DNA of 64,000 nucleotides from contig JAUXTT010000017.1 of the NCBI GenBank assembly GCA_030684395.1, positions 186,001-250,000 of the forward strand. Reading direction: 5' to 3'. Within the stretch, counting starts at the first letter, position 1; every line of letters starts with the position of its first letter. Below are positions 36,118 to 46,432 of the stretch, one piece after another. Below the pieces are notes generated by a model. The model saw only the letters and a list, made by a program, of their open reading frames with translations. It did not search any database and was not told the origin of the DNA. Made by a program: the position numbers and the translations under genes. This DNA comes from Bacteroidota bacterium. GTDB lineage: Bacteria > Bacteroidota > Bacteroidia > B-17B0 > Aurantibacillaceae.

Positions 36118-36882
36118 TTACTTAACCTCCCTCAACCTTTCCAACACTTCTGGCTTCTTTCTTCTGGCTACTTCAAAAACTTTATCATTCATCATTTTTA
36201 TAATGAATGGCTCGCCTTTACTATACTCTTTAATGTGAGTGGCATTAATCATAAAGGTTTTGCTGATTCTAATAAAAGTCGATTTAATACCAAAGTAATC
36301 TTCAAAATCTTTTAAGTTTTTAGGTGTAGTAAAAATCTCTCCTGTAATCATTGTTAAGTGACAATACCTTCCATCTCCTTCAATAAAAATAATACCTTGC
36401 TCACTTAGCATTTTTACCTTTTCTCCACTATGTATGGCAAACTTTCTATCTGTAACGTCTGTTTCTAAATTATGCAATAAATTAATAATTTGGGCCTGAT
36501 AATTAGTTTTCTGTCCAATGTTTTTAATGGCTTTACCAACAGCATAATTTAGATCATTAATCTCTACTGGTTTTAATAAATAATCCAATGCATTAAATTT
36601 GATGGCTGTAATAGCGTAATGGTCATAGCTAGTTACAAATATAATTTCAAATGGGACCTCATCAAATTTTTTTAAAAGATTAAAGCCATTTGCTCGCGGC
36701 ATTTGAATATCTAAAAACACTAGTTGCGGTTTTATTTCGACACATAAGCGATAGGCTTCTTCAACATTTGACGCCTCTCCTATTATTTCAATTTCTGTAT
36801 GATTTTTTTTAAGGAGTTTTGTTAAGACCTCTCTACTGTTTTTTTCATCATCAACCAATATTGCTGTAATTTTGTCACACAT
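36118..36882 (-). CDS. LytTR-family response regulator
   Basis: A 254-residue transcription regulator. The receiver domain begins AILVDDEKNSREVLTKLLKK with phosphoacceptor D58 in LVFLDIQMPRANG and conserved lysine in DYLLKPVEINDL. The C-terminal LytTR DNA-binding domain (about residues 150-250) includes EGDGRYCHLTMITGEIFTTP, IRISKTFMINATHI and EVARRKKPEVLERL. It follows its kinase with a 3-bp gap. Its likely operator, ACCGTTTAG, matches the LytTR consensus [TA][AC][CA]GTTN[AG][TG] and occurs in identical 21-bp elements upstream of the protease and adhesin genes. Confidence 0.94.
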   Translation of the reverse strand: MCDKITAILVDDEKNSREVLTKLLKKNHTEIEIIGEASNVEEAYRLCVEIKPQLVFLDIQMPRANGFNLLKKFDEVPFEIIFVTSYDHYAITAIKFNALDYLLKPVEINDLNYAVGKAIKNIGQKTNYQAQIINLLHNLETDVTDRKFAIHSGEKVKMLSEQGIIFIEGDGRYCHLTMITGEIFTTPKNLKDFEDYFGIKSTFIRISKTFMINATHIKEYSKGEPFIIKMMNDKVFEVARRKKPEVLERLREVK

Positions 36883-36885
36883 ATT

Positions 36886-38862
36886 TTAACTTATTAATGG
36901 TAAAAATAATTCGACACGTGTACCTATTGCTTTTTGCTGCGCATCGTATAAGTCTAGTATTGAAATTTTTATATTTTTGGTATTTTCTAATTTATTAATC
37001 ATTTCAATTCTTTCTTCTGTTAATTTCATTGCTAATGGGTCATGAAGTGATTCATTCTTAAATTGATTTGAACGAACCCTTCCAATTCCGTTATCTTCAA
37101 TAGATACTAGTAATAAATTATTTTTATTTTGAATTTTAATTGTCAACTTACCGTTTCGTTCTTCCTCTAAATTCATTAGTCCATGTAAAATCGCATTTTC
37201 AACATAAGGTTGTATTAACATTGCTGGAATTTTAATGTCAAATTCATTCAATTCATCAGAAATGTTTAATTCATAACTAAACTTATTATCAAATCGTAAT
37301 TGTTCCAACTCCACATAAAGAGCGAGGGTTTCTATTTCTATATCTAATGTAATATCATCTTCTCTAGAGTTATTTAATACCATTCTAATGAGTTTACCAA
37401 ATTTTGCCAAATAATTATAGGCAGCATCTTCATGTTTATTAAGTACGTAATTTTGAATACTATTAATAGAGTTAAAAATGAAATGAGGATTCATTTGAGA
37501 TAGCAGCATCTTTTGTCTAAATAAATCAGAATTCTGCAAAGCAATAATTGCTTTTTGTTTTTGAACTTTGTATAGAGAAAAAAGTCCTACAAAAAGAACA
37601 ATAAATAGTGAGGCTAAGATAATCATCATATTGTTCTTTCTGATATTTTCTGTTTCACTATCCTGCTTCATTTTATTAATAAGTTTTTCATTCTCTGTTT
37701 TCAGTAGCAGTTCTTTTTTATCGAACATAAATTTGAGCTCACTTTTTAATATTTTTTCATGAATTTCTTTGTTCAAAAGATCTTCTGAAGTTGCTCTATT
37801 AAGTTCATACATTTCCAAAGCTTTTTTATAGCTTTTTATAGCCTTATAATCGAGATATAAATTTTTACTTATTCTAACAATTTCCACTTTGTCTTTGGAC
37901 TTATTAAGTAAATCTAAAGAATTTTCTCCATATAGTATTGCACTGTCATATTTTTTTAGAACGGCATATGTTTCTGAAATAAGCATATTTGAGGTTGCCA
38001 TTCTTATTGTATCATTTCGGTTTTTAGCAATTTCAAAACTTACTTTAAATTGATTGATTGCTTTTGTGAAGTCTTTTTTAGCTATATAAACATAGGCTAT
38101 ATTATTACTAATATCTATTGCATATTTTTCTTTACGCAGACTATCCAAAACTAAATTACTTTTTTGAAAATAGCTAATAGAGATTTCGAAATTTTTAAGC
38201 GATAAATAGCAGCGAGCTGTTCGAAAAAGGGCTTCATACATGCCGTCAATGTACTCGATTTTCTTTGCATAAATGTATGCTTTATTATACATGTCTATTG
38301 ATTCTCTATACTCATTTTGAGTAAAATAGATTGATCCAAGACTCATATACACTTCATTAACGCCTTCATAGTCATTTGTTTTTTCAAAAAGTAGCAGTCC
38401 TTTATACAAACAATCAATGGCTAAATTCAATTTTCCATTTTCGATGTAAGCCTTTGCAATTCCTAGGTATGACCACGCAGTTTCATTTTGCATATTAATT
38501 TCCGTGTAAATTAGGATGCATTTTTTGAATAGGGGAATCGACAAAGAACTTTTATTGTTATTAACGAAATCGATAGCCTCATTTTGAATTGCAATTGAAT
38601 AATATTTTAATATTACTTGCTTTACTGTTTTATCAGTTAGTGCTTTCTGTAGCATTTTTTCGGACGAGACTTTCATTTCCATATTGTATTTTTCCCATTC
38701 ACCATCAGGTAATTCATTAATCAGTGAATTTAAAGTTTGTAACTTTAAGGTATCGCTGATTTTGAAGGACAATACTTTTTTTAGTGAATCTGTTTTTTTG
38801 TCTTGAGGCAATCCGAGAAAACAACAGAAGCACAACTTTAACAAAAATATTTTTTTTAGCAT
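36886..38862 (-). CDS. TPR-containing LytS-type sensor histidine kinase
   Basis: A 658-residue sensor starting at the ATG at 38862 (MLKKIFLLKLCFCCFLGLPQ, signal peptide); a start 45 bp upstream would disrupt it. Residues about 60-400 are tetratricopeptide repeats (for example NETAWSYLGIAKAYIENGKL, GVNEVYMSLGSIYFTQNEYR), then a transmembrane helix (MMIILASLFIVLFVGLFSLY), then a His_kinase (PF06580) domain with QMNPHFIFNSINSIQNYVL (H460) and a HATPase with NAILHGLMN and DNGIGR. The sensor domain is outside the cytoplasm, so protein-protein contacts may trigger it. It precedes the LytTR regulator. Confidence 0.93.
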   Translation of the reverse strand: MLKKIFLLKLCFCCFLGLPQDKKTDSLKKVLSFKISDTLKLQTLNSLINELPDGEWEKYNMEMKVSSEKMLQKALTDKTVKQVILKYYSIAIQNEAIDFVNNNKSSLSIPLFKKCILIYTEINMQNETAWSYLGIAKAYIENGKLNLAIDCLYKGLLLFEKTNDYEGVNEVYMSLGSIYFTQNEYRESIDMYNKAYIYAKKIEYIDGMYEALFRTARCYLSLKNFEISISYFQKSNLVLDSLRKEKYAIDISNNIAYVYIAKKDFTKAINQFKVSFEIAKNRNDTIRMATSNMLISETYAVLKKYDSAILYGENSLDLLNKSKDKVEIVRISKNLYLDYKAIKSYKKALEMYELNRATSEDLLNKEIHEKILKSELKFMFDKKELLLKTENEKLINKMKQDSETENIRKNNMMIILASLFIVLFVGLFSLYKVQKQKAIIALQNSDLFRQKMLLSQMNPHFIFNSINSIQNYVLNKHEDAAYNYLAKFGKLIRMVLNNSREDDITLDIEIETLALYVELEQLRFDNKFSYELNISDELNEFDIKIPAMLIQPYVENAILHGLMNLEEERNGKLTIKIQNKNNLLLVSIEDNGIGRVRSNQFKNESLHDPLAMKLTEERIEMINKLENTKNIKISILDLYDAQQKAIGTRVELFLPLIS

Positions 38863-38934
38863 AAGCGAGTTCAATATTTTTTTTACGAAAGTAAATATAA
38901 TTTGCATGTTATTTATTTTATGATTGATGTGTGC

Positions 38935-38955
38935 AAATATGTTCTAAACGGTATA
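38935..38955 (-). promoter_or_regulatory. LytTR box upstream of the metalloprotease and the kinase operon
   Basis: 21 bases AAATATGTTCTAAACGGTAT plus A are identical to 40378-40398. The minus strand of 38944-38952 reads ACCGTTTAG, a perfect LytTR consensus. The site lies between the divergent kinase (73 bp from its ATG) and the protease (133 bp from its ATG), so it may regulate both. Confidence 0.7.
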
Positions 38956-39087
38956 GGAATAAATAAATCCCTTTTTCTTCTTTTGGATCTCTTCTTGTTT
39001 GTGTCAAAAATGTTGTAAGTGGTAATTTAGTTAATTTGAGATATTTTAATTTTGACTCAATAATTATTCATATTAAATAACTGCATT

Positions 39088-40290
39088 ATGTCAAAAACAC
39101 ACACTTCATTTTTAATTGGGGCTTTATTAGTGTTCAATTTCATTAAAGGGCAAGTAGTTGCCACAAATGATACAATTCCTGTAATTGTTCATATTATCAA
39201 TGCCAATGAAACATATGGCACAGGAACAAATCTGGATTCTGTTCAGGTTTATTCTCAGTTCAAGATTTTAAATAATGATTTTAATGGCAATGGACTTAAT
39301 GTTTCAACAGTACCTGCTATTTGGCAATCACTAGTAGCACATACAGGTATTACATTTGTTCCAGCACTATACGACCCTCAAGGTAATCTATTACCTGAAA
39401 AAGGAATTCATAGAGTACCTTATACTTCAATCGATAGTTTGGTGGCTCCAGGCTTAGGATATTCTCAATCAACTATTAATAACGTAATTAAGCCGGCAAC
39501 CATTTGGGATGTTAATTTATATTGTAATATTTGGGTGTTAAAGTTAGCTAATGGCCTTAATGCTTACAGTACTTTCCCTGATAGTACAGGATTCGCGTGG
39601 ATAACAGGCTCAGTTGGTAATGCTTTAAATGATGGGCTCGTTATAAACTATAAAAATTTTGGTGATACGCTTAATGTGATGAATCCCTATAATAAAGGTA
39701 GAACCGCAACTCACGAAATGGGACATTGGTTAGGGTTAATACATATGAATGACTATTGTTCTAATACACCTTATCTAAATGATATTTGGCCAGCAAATTA
39801 TAGCGCTATTAGTTCTATTTTTTCACCACACGTTTATCCAATGCAAGGCACAGAATGTGCCGGCGATACTCACGGTGCCATGTTTATGAATTTCATGTGT
39901 CTCGATTACGATTCAACTCTTGTGATGTTTACGCAAAATCAAGGTGATACGATGCAGTATGCATTACGCAACGCAAAATACAAACACAATTTAAAAAACT
40001 CTTGGGTGCATAAACCGTTTAATGCAACAGGTTTAAAAAACAAAAGCGAACAAAATTTTAGTGTCTACCCAAATCCGTCAAATGGCACTATTCATTTAGG
40101 GAATTTTACTAATGGCAATTCAATCGAAAAAATTGAAATACAAAACATTCAAGGGATAGCTATTTCTTTTGAATGGGATAAAATTAGTCAAGTAATTAAT
40201 TTTAATGATGAAGACGGGATTTATTTTATAAAATTAAATACCAAAAATGGGATTTTTATTAAAAAGCTTTTAATAAACAACACAAAATAA
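39088..40290 (+). CDS. M43-family zinc metalloprotease with T9SS sorting domain
   Basis: A 400-residue secreted protease. A short signal peptide (MSKTHTSFLIGALLVFNFIK) precedes a pro-region and the catalytic domain with HEMGHWLGLIH (HExxHxxGxxH, H209, E210, H213, H219), the zinc signature of cytophagalysin/pappalysin-like M43 proteases; the Met-turn MFMNFMCLDYD is present. The last ~80 residues are a type A T9SS C-terminal domain (FSVYPNPSNGTIHLG, then GIYFIKLNTKNGIFIKKLL), so it is exported through the outer membrane and probably anchored or released. It has a LytTR box upstream and precedes the adhesin gene. Confidence 0.92.
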   Translation: MSKTHTSFLIGALLVFNFIKGQVVATNDTIPVIVHIINANETYGTGTNLDSVQVYSQFKILNNDFNGNGLNVSTVPAIWQSLVAHTGITFVPALYDPQGNLLPEKGIHRVPYTSIDSLVAPGLGYSQSTINNVIKPATIWDVNLYCNIWVLKLANGLNAYSTFPDSTGFAWITGSVGNALNDGLVINYKNFGDTLNVMNPYNKGRTATHEMGHWLGLIHMNDYCSNTPYLNDIWPANYSAISSIFSPHVYPMQGTECAGDTHGAMFMNFMCLDYDSTLVMFTQNQGDTMQYALRNAKYKHNLKNSWVHKPFNATGLKNKSEQNFSVYPNPSNGTIHLGNFTNGNSIEKIEIQNIQGIAISFEWDKISQVINFNDEDGIYFIKLNTKNGIFIKKLLINNTK

Positions 40291-40323
40291 ATTTTAAAAT
40301 TGATTTATTCGTTTTTACTGTTT

Positions 40324-40361
40324 AAAGCAAAGCCTGAAATTAAAATTTCAGGCTTTGCTTT
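40324..40361 (+). terminator. terminator after the metalloprotease gene
   Basis: A near-perfect long stem AAAGCAAAGCCTGAAAT/ATTTCAGGCTTTGCTTT with a 4-nt loop followed by a run of T. It lies 34 bp after the protease stop and 17 bp before the second LytTR element, so the adhesin gene needs its own promoter. Confidence 0.85.
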
Positions 40362-40377
40362 TTTTTATTTCTGTGCG

Positions 40378-40398
40378 AAATATGTTCTAAACGGTATA
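40378..40398 (-). promoter_or_regulatory. LytTR box upstream of the adhesin gene
   Basis: Identical 21-base copy of the element at 38935-38955, with ACCGTTTAG on the minus strand (40387-40395). It lies 72 bp before the adhesin ATG and after the protease terminator, in position to control only the adhesin. Confidence 0.7.
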
Positions 40399-40469
40399 TA
40401 CTAAAATTTATTATTGACTTAGTTTAGCTACTTGAATTCAAAAAAATACAACATTTAAATCTTGCATGT

Positions 40470-43400
40470 ATGCTACAAAAAATTACAATTTCAATCTTAC
40501 TACTTTTAACTTCAATTATTACAAATGCCCAAACGCAGTTTTGGAGTGACACCTTTGAAGATGCTGGTGCACCAAGTTCTGGAACAAGAACTCCTTCAAC
40601 AACGTTTTATGCTTCTAACGAACGCTATTTTAATAGAGTAACAACTGCACAGGTTAATACAACACTTGCTTATACTTCATTCGAAGGAAGCAAGTTTTTT
40701 GGAGGTGCAGATATTGATAACCTAACTGGGCAAAATACCCAGTCTTCTCATCAAAATGTTACATGGTCATCCATTAACATTTCCGGAAAAACTGGGCTTT
40801 CGTTTAAGGGTTTATTTGCTATTGGCAACTCAGCTAATTTTGACCATTTTCCAGGCTCATCCCCTATTGATTATATGTTAGTTGAGTATAGAATTGATGG
40901 TGGAGCTTGGACTAATGCTATACGCTTTTTTCCAAATATTGCAAATAGTGGCGCAGGTGCACTTGCACTTGAAACAACTGGGGATTCACTTGCTGCTGGT
41001 GAGGGCGCAGCTCTTAACGGCACCTTTACGGAATTTACTTACAATATATCAGGTACAGGAACGCTCCTTGATTTAAGGTTAAAATGTGGAGCTAATGGAA
41101 CATCATTTGAAGAAGTTGCAGCAGATAATTTTCGTTTATTTGAAACTCCTGCTTGTTCAAACCCAGTTATAGGACCCCCTCCGACAAATGCTTCAGTTTG
41201 CTCTTCAGGAAACACTGCATTTACAATCGCATCAACAGGAGCAACATCATGGCAATGGCAACTAAATACAGGATCAGGTTTTAACAATATTGCCAATGGT
41301 GCACCCTACTCTGGTGTTACAACACAAACATTAACCATAACAGGGGCAACAACAGGCATGAGCGGTTACTTATACCGTTGTATTGCAACAAGTGGCGCTT
41401 GTAATACTACTTCCTCTCAAGCAACTTTAACAGTTTCAAATCCTTCCTTAACCCTTTTATCCCAAACAAATATTTCTTGTAATGGAGGCTCAAACGGTGC
41501 GGCTTCAGTTAATGCAGCAAGCGGTGGTATCCCATCTTACACATACAATTGGACACCTGGAAATCCAATCGGCGACGGAACAGTTTCAGTTACTGGTTTA
41601 ACAACAGGTACTTGGACATGCACAGTTACTGATAACATAGGCTGTACTGCAACCGCAACAGTTAATATTACACAACCAACCGCCCTTTCACTTACATCAA
41701 ATACACAAACAAACGTTTCTTGCTTTGGTGGATCAAATGGTACAGCAAGTGTAAATGCTGCTACAGGTGGTGCTGGTGGATATACATACAACTGGACCCC
41801 GGGCAACCCAACAGGTGATGGAACAGTTTCTGTAACTGGATTAACTGCCGGAACCTGGACATGTACTGTTACAGATGCAAACTCTTGTACAACAACTCAA
41901 ACATTTAATATTACTGCGCCTACAGCATTAGTAGCATCTGCTTTATCGCAAACAAATGTTTCTTGTTTCGGTGGAAGTAATGGAGCTGCATCAGTTTCTG
42001 TTAGTGGTGGTACAACTGCTTATTCTTATAACTGGACACCGGGCAATCCAACTGGCGACGGAACAATTTCTGTTACTGGCTTAACTGTCGGTACTTGGAC
42101 ATGTACAGTTACAGATGCAAACGCCTGTACAACTACTCAAATAGTTTCTATTACACAACCAACTGCAATAACTGCATCAATTTCTTCAACTACAACTTCT
42201 TGCGTTGGTAATACTGGTACTGCTACTATAAGCGCAGTTGTTGGTGGAACAGGTGCTTACACATATTCTTGGGCTCCTTCGGGTGGAACCACGGCTTCAG
42301 CTACTGCTCTAGGTGCAGGATCATATACTTGTACTATTACAGATGCAAATTCTTGTTCAATTACCAAAACAACAAACGTGACAACTGCAAGTGGCCCTGC
42401 TTTAACTTCTGCTTCTCAAACAAACATTTCTTGTTTTGGTGGTAGTAATGGATCTGCTAGTGTAAATACAGCAACAGGTGGAACTAGTCCATACACATAT
42501 AACTGGACTCCTGGTAATCCAACTGGCGACGGAACAATTTCTGTCACTGGCTTAACTGCTGGCACTTGGACTTGTACTGTTACAGATGCTAACGCATGCA
42601 CAACAACTCAAACATTTAATATTACACAACCAACTGCACTTGTTGCTTCAGCTGCTTCACAAACAAATATTTTTTGTTTCGGTGGATCTAACGGAGCTGC
42701 ATCTGTTTCAGTTAGTGGTGGTACAACTGCATATTCATACAACTGGACACCAGGCAATCCAACTGGCGATGGAACTGCATCTGTTACTGGCTTAACTGCT
42801 GGTACTTGGACTTGTACGGTTACTGATGCAAATTCTTGTACTGCAACTCAAACATTTAACGTTACACAACCAACTGCACTTGTTGCTTCGGCTTCTTCGC
42901 AAACAAACATTTCTTGTTTTGGAGGATCTAACGGAGCTGCATCTGTTTCTGTTAGCGGTGGTACAACTGCTTATTCTTATAACTGGACTCCAGGTAATCC
43001 AACAGGCGATGGAACTGCATCAGTTACTGGTTTAACTGCTGGTACTTGGACTTGTACTGTTACCGATGTAAACTCATGTACAACAACTCAAACTTTTACA
43101 ATTACTGCGCCTACTGCATTAGTAGCGGCTGCTGCTTCACAAACTAATATTTCTTGTTTTTTAGGGCCAAACGGAGCTGCATCAGTTTCTGTTTCAGGAG
43201 GCACAACAGCATACTCTTATAACTGGACTCCAGGAAATCCAACAGGCGACGGAACTGCATCAGTTACTGGTTTAACTGCTGGTACTTGGACTTGTACTGT
43301 TACAGATGCAAATTCTTGTACTACAACTCAAACTTTCACAATTACACAACCAAGTGCTTTAGTTGCTACAACTGCATCACAAACTAATATCTCTTGTAAT

Positions 43401-45266
43401 GCAGGAAGTAATGGCACTGCAAGCGTAAACACAGCAACAGGTGGAACTGGCCCATACACATATAACTGGACTCCTGGTAATCCAACAGGAGACGGTACAA
43501 TCTCTGTAACAGGATTAACAGCTGGCACTTGGACTTGTACAGTTACTGATGTAAACTCTTGTACTGCAGCACAAACATTTGCAATTACTCAACCCACAGC
43601 TATAGTAGCATTTAATTTATCGCAAACAAATATATCTTGTAATAGCGGAAGCAATGGTGCAGTATCAGTTTCAGTTAGTGGTGGTACAACTGCTTATTCA
43701 TATAACTGGACACCTGGCAACCCAACAGGCGATGGAACTGCTAGTATTACTGGTGTAACTGCCGGCACTTGGATTTGCAATGTGACGGATGCAAACGGAT
43801 GTACAACAACAACAAGTGCAACAGTTACTGAGCCAGCTCTTTTATCTGCTAGTTCAGTATCAACCGCAATTCTTTGTAATGGAGGAGCATCAATTATAAC
43901 AGTAAGCTCAACAGGCGGTAGTCCTTCTTATAGCGGAATTGGAACGTTTACTGTAACAGCAGGCATGTATTCTTATACGGTAACAGATGCAAATGGATGT
44001 ACTGCAACAACAAACATAACAGTTGTAGAACCAACAGCAATCACAAATTCGCAAACATTAAATTTATGTGCTGGACAATCAGTTACTGTTGGTTCAGCCA
44101 TTTATACCACAACAGGTATTTATACAGATGTGTTAACAGCAATTAATGGATGCGATTCATCAGTTACAACTAATTTAACTGTTAATCCCGCAATTGTAAG
44201 TTCACAAACACAAACACTTTGTTCGGGACAATCCGTTACAGTTGGTTCTAATACTTACACAACTAGCGGAACCTTCACTGATGTTTTAACCGCAACTAAT
44301 GGTTGCGATAGCACTGTAACAACAAATCTTACGGTTAATGCTGCTATTGTAAACACTCAAAATATTACATTGTGTGCTGGACAATCCTTAACAGTAGGAT
44401 TAAATACTTATGCTACAACAGGAAATTATACTGATGTTTTAACCGCAGCTAATGGATGCGATAGCACTGTAACAACAAATCTCATAGTTAATGCTGCTAT
44501 TGTAAACACTCAATCCGTATTACTTTGTTCTGGTCAATCAATTGTAGTTGGATCAAATACTTATTCCTCTTCAGGCGTTTACACCGATGTATTGACTGCA
44601 GCTAATGGTTGCGATAGCACTGTAACAACAAATCTTACTGTTAACGCACAGATATTGTTTACACAAAACGTTGCTGTGTGTTTTGGAGGAAGTATTACTG
44701 TAGGCACAAATACTTATTCAGTTACAGGAACATATACTGACAACCTTACAGCCGCTGCTGGCTGCGACAGTATTGTAACAACTAACTTAACAGTAAATAA
44801 TATAATTGATGTTACAACTACATTAAATGACTTAATAATAACAGCAAATGAATCTGCCGCAACATATCAGTGGATTAATTGCGATAATAGCAACGCTATA
44901 ATTCCTGGCGAAACAAGCCAAAACTTTACTGCAACTTCAAATGGTAATTATGCAGTTATAGTTAGTCAAAATGCTTGTTCGGATACAAGCGCCTGTGTAA
45001 ACATTTCTAATGTTGGAATTAAAGAGGTTAATAGTTTAACAGGAATTAAATTATACCCTAATCCTACTAATAGTTCATTTACAATTTCAGGAGTTGAATT
45101 AAAAACAACGATCAGTATTTATAATATAATTGGTGAATTAATTAAATCGACTCAAACAGAAAAAAACAATACAATAATTGATTTAACTGATTATTCAACT
45201 GGAATTTATTTCATCAAAATAAAAAACAATGACGGAGAAGCAATTAAAAAATTAATTAAGGAATAA
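40470..45266 (+). CDS. giant SprB-repeat cell-surface adhesin with T9SS sorting domain
   Basis: A 1598-residue secreted protein. Signal peptide MLQKITISILLLLTSIITNA. Residues ~22-228 form a jelly-roll-like N-terminal domain; 229-325 look Ig-like (WQWQLNTGSGFNN, CIATSGACNTT). Residues 327-~1190 hold eleven SprB-type repeats of about 78 residues, each with QTN-I/V-SC, YNWTPGNPTGDG and TGLTAGTWTCTVTDANSC. Five repeats of about 50 residues follow, with CxGQS-x-T-VG and TDVLTAxNGCDSTVTTNLTV. The C-terminus is a type A T9SS domain (LYPNPTNSSFTISGVE, YSTGIYFIKIKN). SprB-type proteins serve gliding or adhesion. A LytTR box lies upstream. Confidence 0.93.
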   Translation: MLQKITISILLLLTSIITNAQTQFWSDTFEDAGAPSSGTRTPSTTFYASNERYFNRVTTAQVNTTLAYTSFEGSKFFGGADIDNLTGQNTQSSHQNVTWSSINISGKTGLSFKGLFAIGNSANFDHFPGSSPIDYMLVEYRIDGGAWTNAIRFFPNIANSGAGALALETTGDSLAAGEGAALNGTFTEFTYNISGTGTLLDLRLKCGANGTSFEEVAADNFRLFETPACSNPVIGPPPTNASVCSSGNTAFTIASTGATSWQWQLNTGSGFNNIANGAPYSGVTTQTLTITGATTGMSGYLYRCIATSGACNTTSSQATLTVSNPSLTLLSQTNISCNGGSNGAASVNAASGGIPSYTYNWTPGNPIGDGTVSVTGLTTGTWTCTVTDNIGCTATATVNITQPTALSLTSNTQTNVSCFGGSNGTASVNAATGGAGGYTYNWTPGNPTGDGTVSVTGLTAGTWTCTVTDANSCTTTQTFNITAPTALVASALSQTNVSCFGGSNGAASVSVSGGTTAYSYNWTPGNPTGDGTISVTGLTVGTWTCTVTDANACTTTQIVSITQPTAITASISSTTTSCVGNTGTATISAVVGGTGAYTYSWAPSGGTTASATALGAGSYTCTITDANSCSITKTTNVTTASGPALTSASQTNISCFGGSNGSASVNTATGGTSPYTYNWTPGNPTGDGTISVTGLTAGTWTCTVTDANACTTTQTFNITQPTALVASAASQTNIFCFGGSNGAASVSVSGGTTAYSYNWTPGNPTGDGTASVTGLTAGTWTCTVTDANSCTATQTFNVTQPTALVASASSQTNISCFGGSNGAASVSVSGGTTAYSYNWTPGNPTGDGTASVTGLTAGTWTCTVTDVNSCTTTQTFTITAPTALVAAAASQTNISCFLGPNGAASVSVSGGTTAYSYNWTPGNPTGDGTASVTGLTAGTWTCTVTDANSCTTTQTFTITQPSALVATTASQTNISCNAGSNGTASVNTATGGTGPYTYNWTPGNPTGDGTISVTGLTAGTWTCTVTDVNSCTAAQTFAITQPTAIVAFNLSQTNISCNSGSNGAVSVSVSGGTTAYSYNWTPGNPTGDGTASITGVTAGTWICNVTDANGCTTTTSATVTEPALLSASSVSTAILCNGGASIITVSSTGGSPSYSGIGTFTVTAGMYSYTVTDANGCTATTNITVVEPTAITNSQTLNLCAGQSVTVGSAIYTTTGIYTDVLTAINGCDSSVTTNLTVNPAIVSSQTQTLCSGQSVTVGSNTYTTSGTFTDVLTATNGCDSTVTTNLTVNAAIVNTQNITLCAGQSLTVGLNTYATTGNYTDVLTAANGCDSTVTTNLIVNAAIVNTQSVLLCSGQSIVVGSNTYSSSGVYTDVLTAANGCDSTVTTNLTVNAQILFTQNVAVCFGGSITVGTNTYSVTGTYTDNLTAAAGCDSIVTTNLTVNNIIDVTTTLNDLIITANESAATYQWINCDNSNAIIPGETSQNFTATSNGNYAVIVSQNACSDTSACVNISNVGIKEVNSLTGIKLYPNPTNSSFTISGVELKTTISIYNIIGELIKSTQTEKNNTIIDLTDYSTGIYFIKIKNNDGEAIKKLIKE
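41448..44038 (+). repeat. array of eleven SprB-type repeat units
   Basis: About 234-bp coding units in tandem inside the adhesin. Units 2, 3 and 5-10 are very similar at the DNA level, with stretches such as GGTACTTGGACTTGTACTGT repeated; units 6-8 are the closest, unit 4 and unit 11 the most diverged. This suggests recent homogenisation by recombination within the central array. Confidence 0.85.
44039..44800 (+). repeat. array of five CxGQS repeats
   Basis: Five units of about 150 bp, each coding roughly 50 residues ending in NGCDSTVTTNLTVN. They follow the SprB array directly, and DNA of the middle three units is nearly identical over GATAGCACTGTAACAACAAA. Confidence 0.8.
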
Positions 45267-45291: not shown

Positions 45292-46398
45292 ATGAAAAAA
45301 ATTATTTTACTAGCAATGTTTTCAATTGCATTAATAAGTCAGGCTCAAGTCGGAGGATTACTAAAAAAAGCCAAAGATAAGGTTTCTAAAAAAGAAGAGC
45401 CTGTAAATGCTTCTCCTACGAATACAACTAACACTACAAAGTCAAATGAGACAAAGGAGCCAGAAGCTAAAATTAATTCAGAAGTACAAGAGAAGAAAAC
45501 GGATGGTATAACAAGCCCAATGCACCAAAAATACATGAACAAAATTGTATTTGCTTCTAAAACGGAAAACTTAGCATTTAAAGAGGAAATAGAAGCCGAG
45601 TTTAAATCTGAATTTAACTTAGGGGAATTGATTTACTTTAGAGTTTATCTAAATAATTCATTGTTAAATTATATTGAACCTATAGTAAAGGAAACGGAGG
45701 ATGCAAAGGGTAAGAATGCTACATTTAAAATGGTGTTCTATATTGACAATATTTTAATTGAGAATTTAAAAAATGACGACATTTCCTTAACTGAATTGAG
45801 CCCAAGTGAAAAGGGAACAAGAACTACTTTCAAAGGAGCGTTTAAGTCAGAATACGATGCTGACCAAATGATTGGAAAAGATGTATTTAAAGAATTAGTT
45901 AGAAAGCAGGACGCGAAATTAACAGCAGGTAAACATCAGTTGCGTATGGAGATTATCCCAATTTATATAGATCCTATTAATTCTAATAATTCAGTTAAAG
46001 GAAATGTGGTTGCTTCTGGTAGTATTACTTTAAATGTAAAAGAAGTTATTGTTAATCCGTCAGACCCAAATGTTTGTATGCCTAAAGCGGTAAAGTCAGA
46101 TCCTGCACTTGAAGCTAAGATGTCGAAATATTACTTCAACGAGTTTAAAACCAAATGTGATGTTGTGAAAATTTATTCAGACAATTGGGTAATTGAAAAA
46201 AACAAGCTAACAGGTGTAAATATGAGCAGACATATTGATGCCTATTTTGGATACAAAGACGCCAATGGAGCTTGCTATAAGCAACTTTATATTGTTTCAC
46301 AAGAATATGATGGAACTAAATTTGTAGATAAGATGGATTTTCTTGGAAATTATTTCCCAACTGAAATTAACTGTAAATGCCTGCAAATAAAACCGTAA
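45292..46398 (+). CDS. exported protein of unknown function
   Basis: A 368-residue protein with a signal peptide (MKKIILLAMFSIALISQAQV). A low-complexity linker rich in E/K/T/N (residues 30-75) is followed by two beta-rich domains, one with FGYKDANGACYKQLYIVSQE near the end. A cysteine pair (CKCLQIK) closes the protein. I do not recognise the family. It follows the adhesin by 25 bp and could be co-transcribed, but its role is unknown. Confidence 0.72.
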   Translation: MKKIILLAMFSIALISQAQVGGLLKKAKDKVSKKEEPVNASPTNTTNTTKSNETKEPEAKINSEVQEKKTDGITSPMHQKYMNKIVFASKTENLAFKEEIEAEFKSEFNLGELIYFRVYLNNSLLNYIEPIVKETEDAKGKNATFKMVFYIDNILIENLKNDDISLTELSPSEKGTRTTFKGAFKSEYDADQMIGKDVFKELVRKQDAKLTAGKHQLRMEIIPIYIDPINSNNSVKGNVVASGSITLNVKEVIVNPSDPNVCMPKAVKSDPALEAKMSKYYFNEFKTKCDVVKIYSDNWVIEKNKLTGVNMSRHIDAYFGYKDANGACYKQLYIVSQEYDGTKFVDKMDFLGNYFPTEINCKCLQIKP

Positions 46399-46432
46399 CA
46401 AACATTATTAGCACTTAACCTATAAAACAATT

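Follow-up and report, generated by a model that had tools for sequence, protein, structure and literature searches.

The closest described relatives of the system analysed here, as judged from the regulator architecture, are the LytS/LytTR systems YpdA/YpdB of E. coli, AgrCA of S. aureus and AlgZR of P. aeruginosa. Two-component control is also tied to type IX secretion in P. gingivalis, where PorXY-SigP governs the secretion machinery; the PorXY regulator is not a LytTR protein. The LytTR family is large and poorly studied. Characterised LytTR sites have a 9+12 bp spacing (PMC4847170, PMC6193735), and those of YpdB consist of two ~9-bp boxes with 11-13 bp between them (PMC4847170). In the LytTR Regulatory Systems HdrRM and BrsRM, direct repeats with a 12-bp spacing are located just upstream of the system's own promoter, and a membrane inhibitor is found instead of a kinase (PMC6193735).

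The locus described in this work, found in a 64-kb stretch of DNA (the window) from a bacterium of the Bacteroidia, combines several of these features. Its predicted operator resembles the YpdB sites in having two boxes, shares the box CCGTT with the AlgR site CCGTTCGTC, and shares with HdrRM and BrsRM the position of the direct repeats just upstream of the system's own promoter, a layout that hence suggests positive autoregulation. Unlike in YpdA/YpdB, AgrCA and AlgZR, the sensor kinase carries TPRs and the predicted targets are type IX surface proteins, an A-tract separates the two boxes, the second of which is reduced to ACA, and the operator is used in both orientations and at two fixed distances. 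Unlike in the LytTR Regulatory Systems, the adjacent partner of the regulator is a histidine kinase, and the regulator contains a receiver domain; the difference from PorXY-SigP lies in the LytTR regulator and in the type IX surface proteins as predicted targets. The TPR kinase also exhibits a weak match to the FimS kinase of Porphyromonas (E 6e-11), with a score of 41 bits that leaves it outside the NCBIfam FimS family (cut-off 600). A literature search revealed no described operator of a LytTR two-component system that targets type IX proteins. The site reported here provides a testable wiring diagram, and with the operator defined to the base, together with the promoter geometry, regulons of surface adhesins and proteases become predictable from sequence and directly testable.

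Genes of the module

The module comprises the following features (positions refer to the window):

36118..36882, minus strand: LytTR response regulator, receiver (Asp58) and LytTR domain (Pfam Response_reg 2e-20, LytTR 6e-10; family alignment)
36886..38862, minus strand: LytS-type TPR sensor kinase (Pfam His_kinase, TPR_12)
39088..40290, plus strand: M43 metalloprotease with a type IX sorting domain (Pfam Peptidase_M43, Por_Secre_tail)
40324..40361, plus strand: intrinsic terminator in the protease/adhesin gap (18-nt arms that are 100% complementary, followed by a T run)
40470..45266, plus strand: giant SprB-repeat adhesin with 9 SprB stretches (Pfam SprB 3e-73, Por_Secre_tail 2e-15)
45292..46398, plus strand: secreted protein of 368 aa with a signal peptide, 26 bp after the adhesin

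The Pfam searches bear out the identities that the first-pass annotation had assigned to the regulator, kinase, protease and adhesin, and the strong terminator that it had placed between the latter two is real. Both the receiver and the LytTR DNA-binding domain of the regulator score above the gathering cut-offs. LytTR regulators are numerous in Bacteroidia genomes, and the present genome encodes dozens of candidates. The kinase consists of a signal peptide, TPRs, one membrane span and a His_kinase domain with NPHFIFN and the N and G boxes, and its start is probably at 38862 (MLKKIFLLKL..) rather than at 38907, because the -7 box predicted for its operon (see below) falls between these two positions. 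The protease contains HEMGHWLGLIH, which corresponds to the HExxHxxGxxH motif of M43 metalloproteases. The C-terminal sorting domain (Por_Secre_tail) identifies both the protease and the adhesin as type IX cargo. For the product of 45292..46398, a probable operon partner of the adhesin, the Pfam search reported no family.

The repeated element and its counterparts in homologous loci

The starting point of this analysis was a 21-mer, AAATATGTTCTAAACGGTATA, said to occur exactly twice (38935-38955 and 40378-40398, both on the plus strand), 133 bp before the protease ATG (39088) and 72 bp before the adhesin ATG (40470), and to contain ACCGTTTAG on its minus strand. Distances and minus-strand match are as claimed, and the count holds for the window as well as for the entire 4.87-Mb genome. 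With up to 3 mismatches allowed, we found no third match in the window (0.01 expected from shuffles) and nothing beyond the two window copies in the whole genome. Exact matches to the 14-mer core are likewise confined to the two window places, and the nearest 14-mer with one mismatch elsewhere in the genome (L003) falls inside a coding sequence.

Two simpler search strategies were discarded. The strict 21-mer search of 87 genomes of the family returned matches mostly by chance, and the loose pattern AAWAYGTTNNNNACGGTA showed no genome-wide enrichment over a reversed control; regulon prediction from a single pattern therefore fails.

The regulator has close homologues in 15 of the 87 family genomes (46-63% identity) and further ones in a few other Bacteroidia families (67-48% identity). 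The de novo motif search in the upstream regions of 22 homologous kinases, with the window excluded, reported a best 18-mer motif with a log-likelihood of 135 (58-68 in 12 dinucleotide-shuffled sets), which is the same element as that noticed in the window. A scan of genome contigs detected only distant regulators (identity up to 44%) and was left out of the motif. Eleven more distant LytTR operons, paralogues from the window's own genome, yielded a different, weak motif. At a threshold of at least 17 bits, the matrix has 25 matches in 376 kb of homologous loci (0-1 expected), all except one of them intergenic and located at the kinase/regulator operon or at an adjoining cargo gene (24/25). 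The motif is absent upstream of two homologous kinases (L127 and L130).

Of the 15 genomes that encode a close homologue of the regulator, 14 have an operator site (E<=0.01), vs 22 of the 72 that do not, an association (p=8e-6) that arises partly by construction; among genomes outside the training set that encode a regulator homologue, 5/6 have a site (p=0.017). In two loci the kinase-proximal operator is accompanied by a near-copy ahead of a type IX protein (1123 aa in L114, 782 aa in L115), and a third (L250) contains a set of three operators that are nearly identical and of which at least two precede type IX cargo operons. These duplications indicate that the layout of the window is a recurrent design. 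The comparison shows a predicted operator with its box spacing and promoter spacing, its recurrence and its association with the regulator subfamily.

Two further observations were made in these loci. In the genome encoding the closest regulator homologue (67% identity), the ORF in the kinase position is just 192 aa long and the operator is intact (L247 4341-4919). Similar-looking proteins of ~500 aa are found behind the operator in genomes of different families (L318 4885-6360 and L323 2829-4382); a Pfam scan of the L318 protein, the one of the pair that was scanned, reported no family.

Predicted operators, promoters and their proposed assignment

The predicted operator spans 24-25 bp (TGTGCtAAAAAcGTTgTtAACGGTA) and reads ACCGTTnAC-N12-ACA on the other strand, towards the kinase; the alignment of about 20 loci gives the 30-base consensus ttACCGTTaACAAcGTTTTTa.CACATtt in the kinase sense. 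The conserved ACA starts 21 bp after the ACCGTTnAC box, i.e. after a 12-bp spacer, and because this is the standard LytTR spacing, the predicted site is a paired LytTR direct repeat with one strong and one reduced box. Two ~9-bp boxes 11-13 bp apart, as expected of such repeats, are found in the alignment, the second being strongly conserved only as (C)ACA and counting as weak. The earlier view that each element contains a single box is therefore wrong. We also considered the inverted repeat AACGTT-nnn-AACGGT as the core and dropped it, since the conserved CACA in the wider alignment suits a LytTR direct repeat better; the inverted-repeat appearance comes from AACGTT being palindromic by itself.

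Promoters of Bacteroidota contain a -7 box, TAnnTTTG (PMC9723704). When 20 loci were searched for this box with at most 1 mismatch, it was found to start 35-38 bp after CACA on the kinase side in 12/20 loci (about 1.6 expected) and 23-25 bp after GGT on the cargo side in 17/20 (about 0.8 expected). The site thus directly precedes the promoter of the presumed regulated operon, as is characteristic of LytTR direct repeats. The window holds three predicted operators, two of which were seen in the first-pass annotation:

38886..38893, minus strand: TACTTTCG, predicted as -7 box for the kinase-regulator operon; 36 bp from operator A on the kinase side
38930..38953, minus strand: operator A (first 21-mer), direct repeat towards the kinase; place, orientation and -7 distance as in about 20 homologous loci
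39000..39024, plus strand: operator B, a degenerate third copy; top match in the window, 23.4 bits (PWM from other genomes)
39047..39054, plus strand: -7 box TAATTTTG of the protease, exact TAnnTTTG, 23 bp beyond operator B
40372..40396, plus strand: operator C (second 21-mer), canonical N12; 22.0 bits (held-out PWM)
40420..40427, plus strand: TAGTTTAG, predicted as -7 box for the adhesin gene; 24 bp from operator C on the cargo side

Operators B and C rank first and second in the 64-kb window with a PWM built from other genomes and the sister system L051, without the module's own sites. Operator B was also matched by the whole-genome model described below (E=1e-5), to whose training set it belonged. 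Operator A shares the 21 bases with operator C and has a poor ungapped PWM score; relative to the consensus it is one base short in the spacer before CACA and is counted as N11 or N13.

A weaker operator-like match (16 bits) was noticed at 46391-46417, at the end of the gene that follows the adhesin and in the opposite orientation.

Of the three predicted operators, A would most naturally belong to the kinase-regulator operon, B to the protease and C to the adhesin. Each gene would then have its own site, as originally proposed; however, the first 21-mer is not the best candidate for the protease site, as operator B is closer to the gene and has the exact -7 box. A competing interpretation, near the original one, is that operator A serves as a shared bidirectional site for the kinase operon and the protease, with B as an auxiliary element. 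In the relatives, the kinase-proximal operator is usually also followed by a -7-like box 23-25 bp towards the divergent gene, and operator A indeed has TTCTTTTG at 25 bp on the protease side. Nonetheless, TTCTTTTG lacks the A of TAnnTTTG, while operator B is followed at 23 bp by the exact TAATTTTG and is itself typically spaced from the ATG, and we consider the shared site possible but rather unlikely. Operator A is more likely the autoregulatory site of the kinase-regulator operon than the protease site, although its one-mismatch -7 box on the protease side means that it may contribute to protease transcription too.

Our preferred explanation, which we regard as highly probable, is that the adjacent LytTR regulator uses the elements as operators and through them activates its own operon, the protease and the adhesin; control of the protease and adhesin by the neighbouring LytTR pair, as first suggested, accordingly appears very probable from the comparison. 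The TPR domain would sense an extracytoplasmic signal, upon which the LytS-type kinase would phosphorylate Asp58 of the regulator, and the regulator would bind the operators as a dimer. From operator B it would activate the M43 protease and from operator C the SprB-repeat adhesin, while the location of operator A at the kinase-regulator promoter implies autoregulation, so that activation from A would create a positive feedback. We infer binding, dimerisation, phosphorylation, activation and feedback from the gene and site arrangement, and the sign of regulation from the operator position.

The opposite sign, i.e. that the regulator binds the operators and represses the cargo promoters until a signal relieves the repression, seems improbable. 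In its favour, the distance from the end of the ACCGTT box to the cargo-side -7 box is 23-25 bp, from which we infer that the ACCGTT box would overlap the -33 region. On the other hand, the spacing between operator and promoter is fixed, inspection of the sequence revealed no -33 box at the right distance in the cargo promoters of the window, and where LytTR direct repeats ahead of -35 elements have been tested, they activate (PMC6193735).

Still less probable is that a different regulator, perhaps a global one with no connection to the neighbouring LytTR pair, acts at the element. This idea draws on genomes of the genus g10, in which many sites occur and no close homologue of the window regulator is found at the cut-off used; by our account, another family member must therefore use the g10 sites. 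It is opposed by the LytTR box spacing of the motif, its occurrence at promoters of the window regulator's subfamily, the different motif obtained from other LytTR operons, the co-occurrence of site and regulator across genomes, and the failure of the loose pattern to show genome-wide enrichment. A functionless dispersed or duplicated repeat, for which the 21-bp identity of the two copies might speak as a sign of recent duplication, can practically be dismissed, as the flanks of the copies are unrelated and the site is kept in several Bacteroidia families with a fixed promoter geometry, which already contradicts it.

Operator dialects and predicted targets elsewhere

To cover the operator together with the -7 region, a 60-position sequence model was used, with E-values that are rough. 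In the module's own genome it matched the window sites, two sister kinase promoters and four further places: C13:52176, C33:46429, C5:96550 and C16:291313. The best of the matches outside the window, C13:52176 (L313 3177), is located ahead of an operon whose five genes encode large secreted proteins, and has no -7 box at the usual spacing; a similar-looking counterpart of this operon, as judged from gene order and N-terminal sequence, is preceded by the same operator in another genus (L321 2219). C33:46429 and C5:96550 are also located upstream of secreted proteins. The notion of a self-contained module is thus only partly tenable, as related operators also precede genes for other secreted proteins at further places in the genome.

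Three sister regulators are encoded in the same genome, and the operators differ in dialect between systems (ACCGTTTAGAACAT in the window, ACCGTAAATAACGT in L051 and ACCACACACAAGGT in L052). The coexistence of sister systems with distinct dialects makes the DNA specificity of the LytTR domain approachable. The genome G074 (genus g10) contains about 14 near-identical sites that share a dialect (TTGTGCTAAAAACCCGTTTAACGGTAG or ...ACTGCTTTAACGGTAG; L331-L340), mostly ahead of genes for secreted or type IX proteins and many of them ahead of type IX or lipoprotein genes, including one for a SprB protein with 15 stretches; three of these sites lie within 2 kb in L333. It is an even bet, in our opinion, whether a single architecture (TGTGC-A-tract-ACGGTA with two fixed promoter distances) serves as the LytTR code that controls the secreted surface proteome across a broad Bacteroidia lineage, ranging from three-promoter modules to regulons of at least 14 genes, with a dialect per genome or sister system that would insulate paralogous regulators, and possibly driving a small RNA in one sister system.

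The sister system L052 has a near-exact operator pair of about 26 bp, TTTGTGTCAAAAACCTTGTGTGTGGTA, at C16:291313 (L324 3305-3450) and C33:60745 (L258). At C16:291313 the operator is followed at 23 bp by an exact -7 box, TAAATTTG, after which there is no open reading frame, and ~100 nt further on by a strong, terminator-like hairpin. Rfam reported nothing at this locus, which we propose as a candidate LytTR-controlled small RNA.
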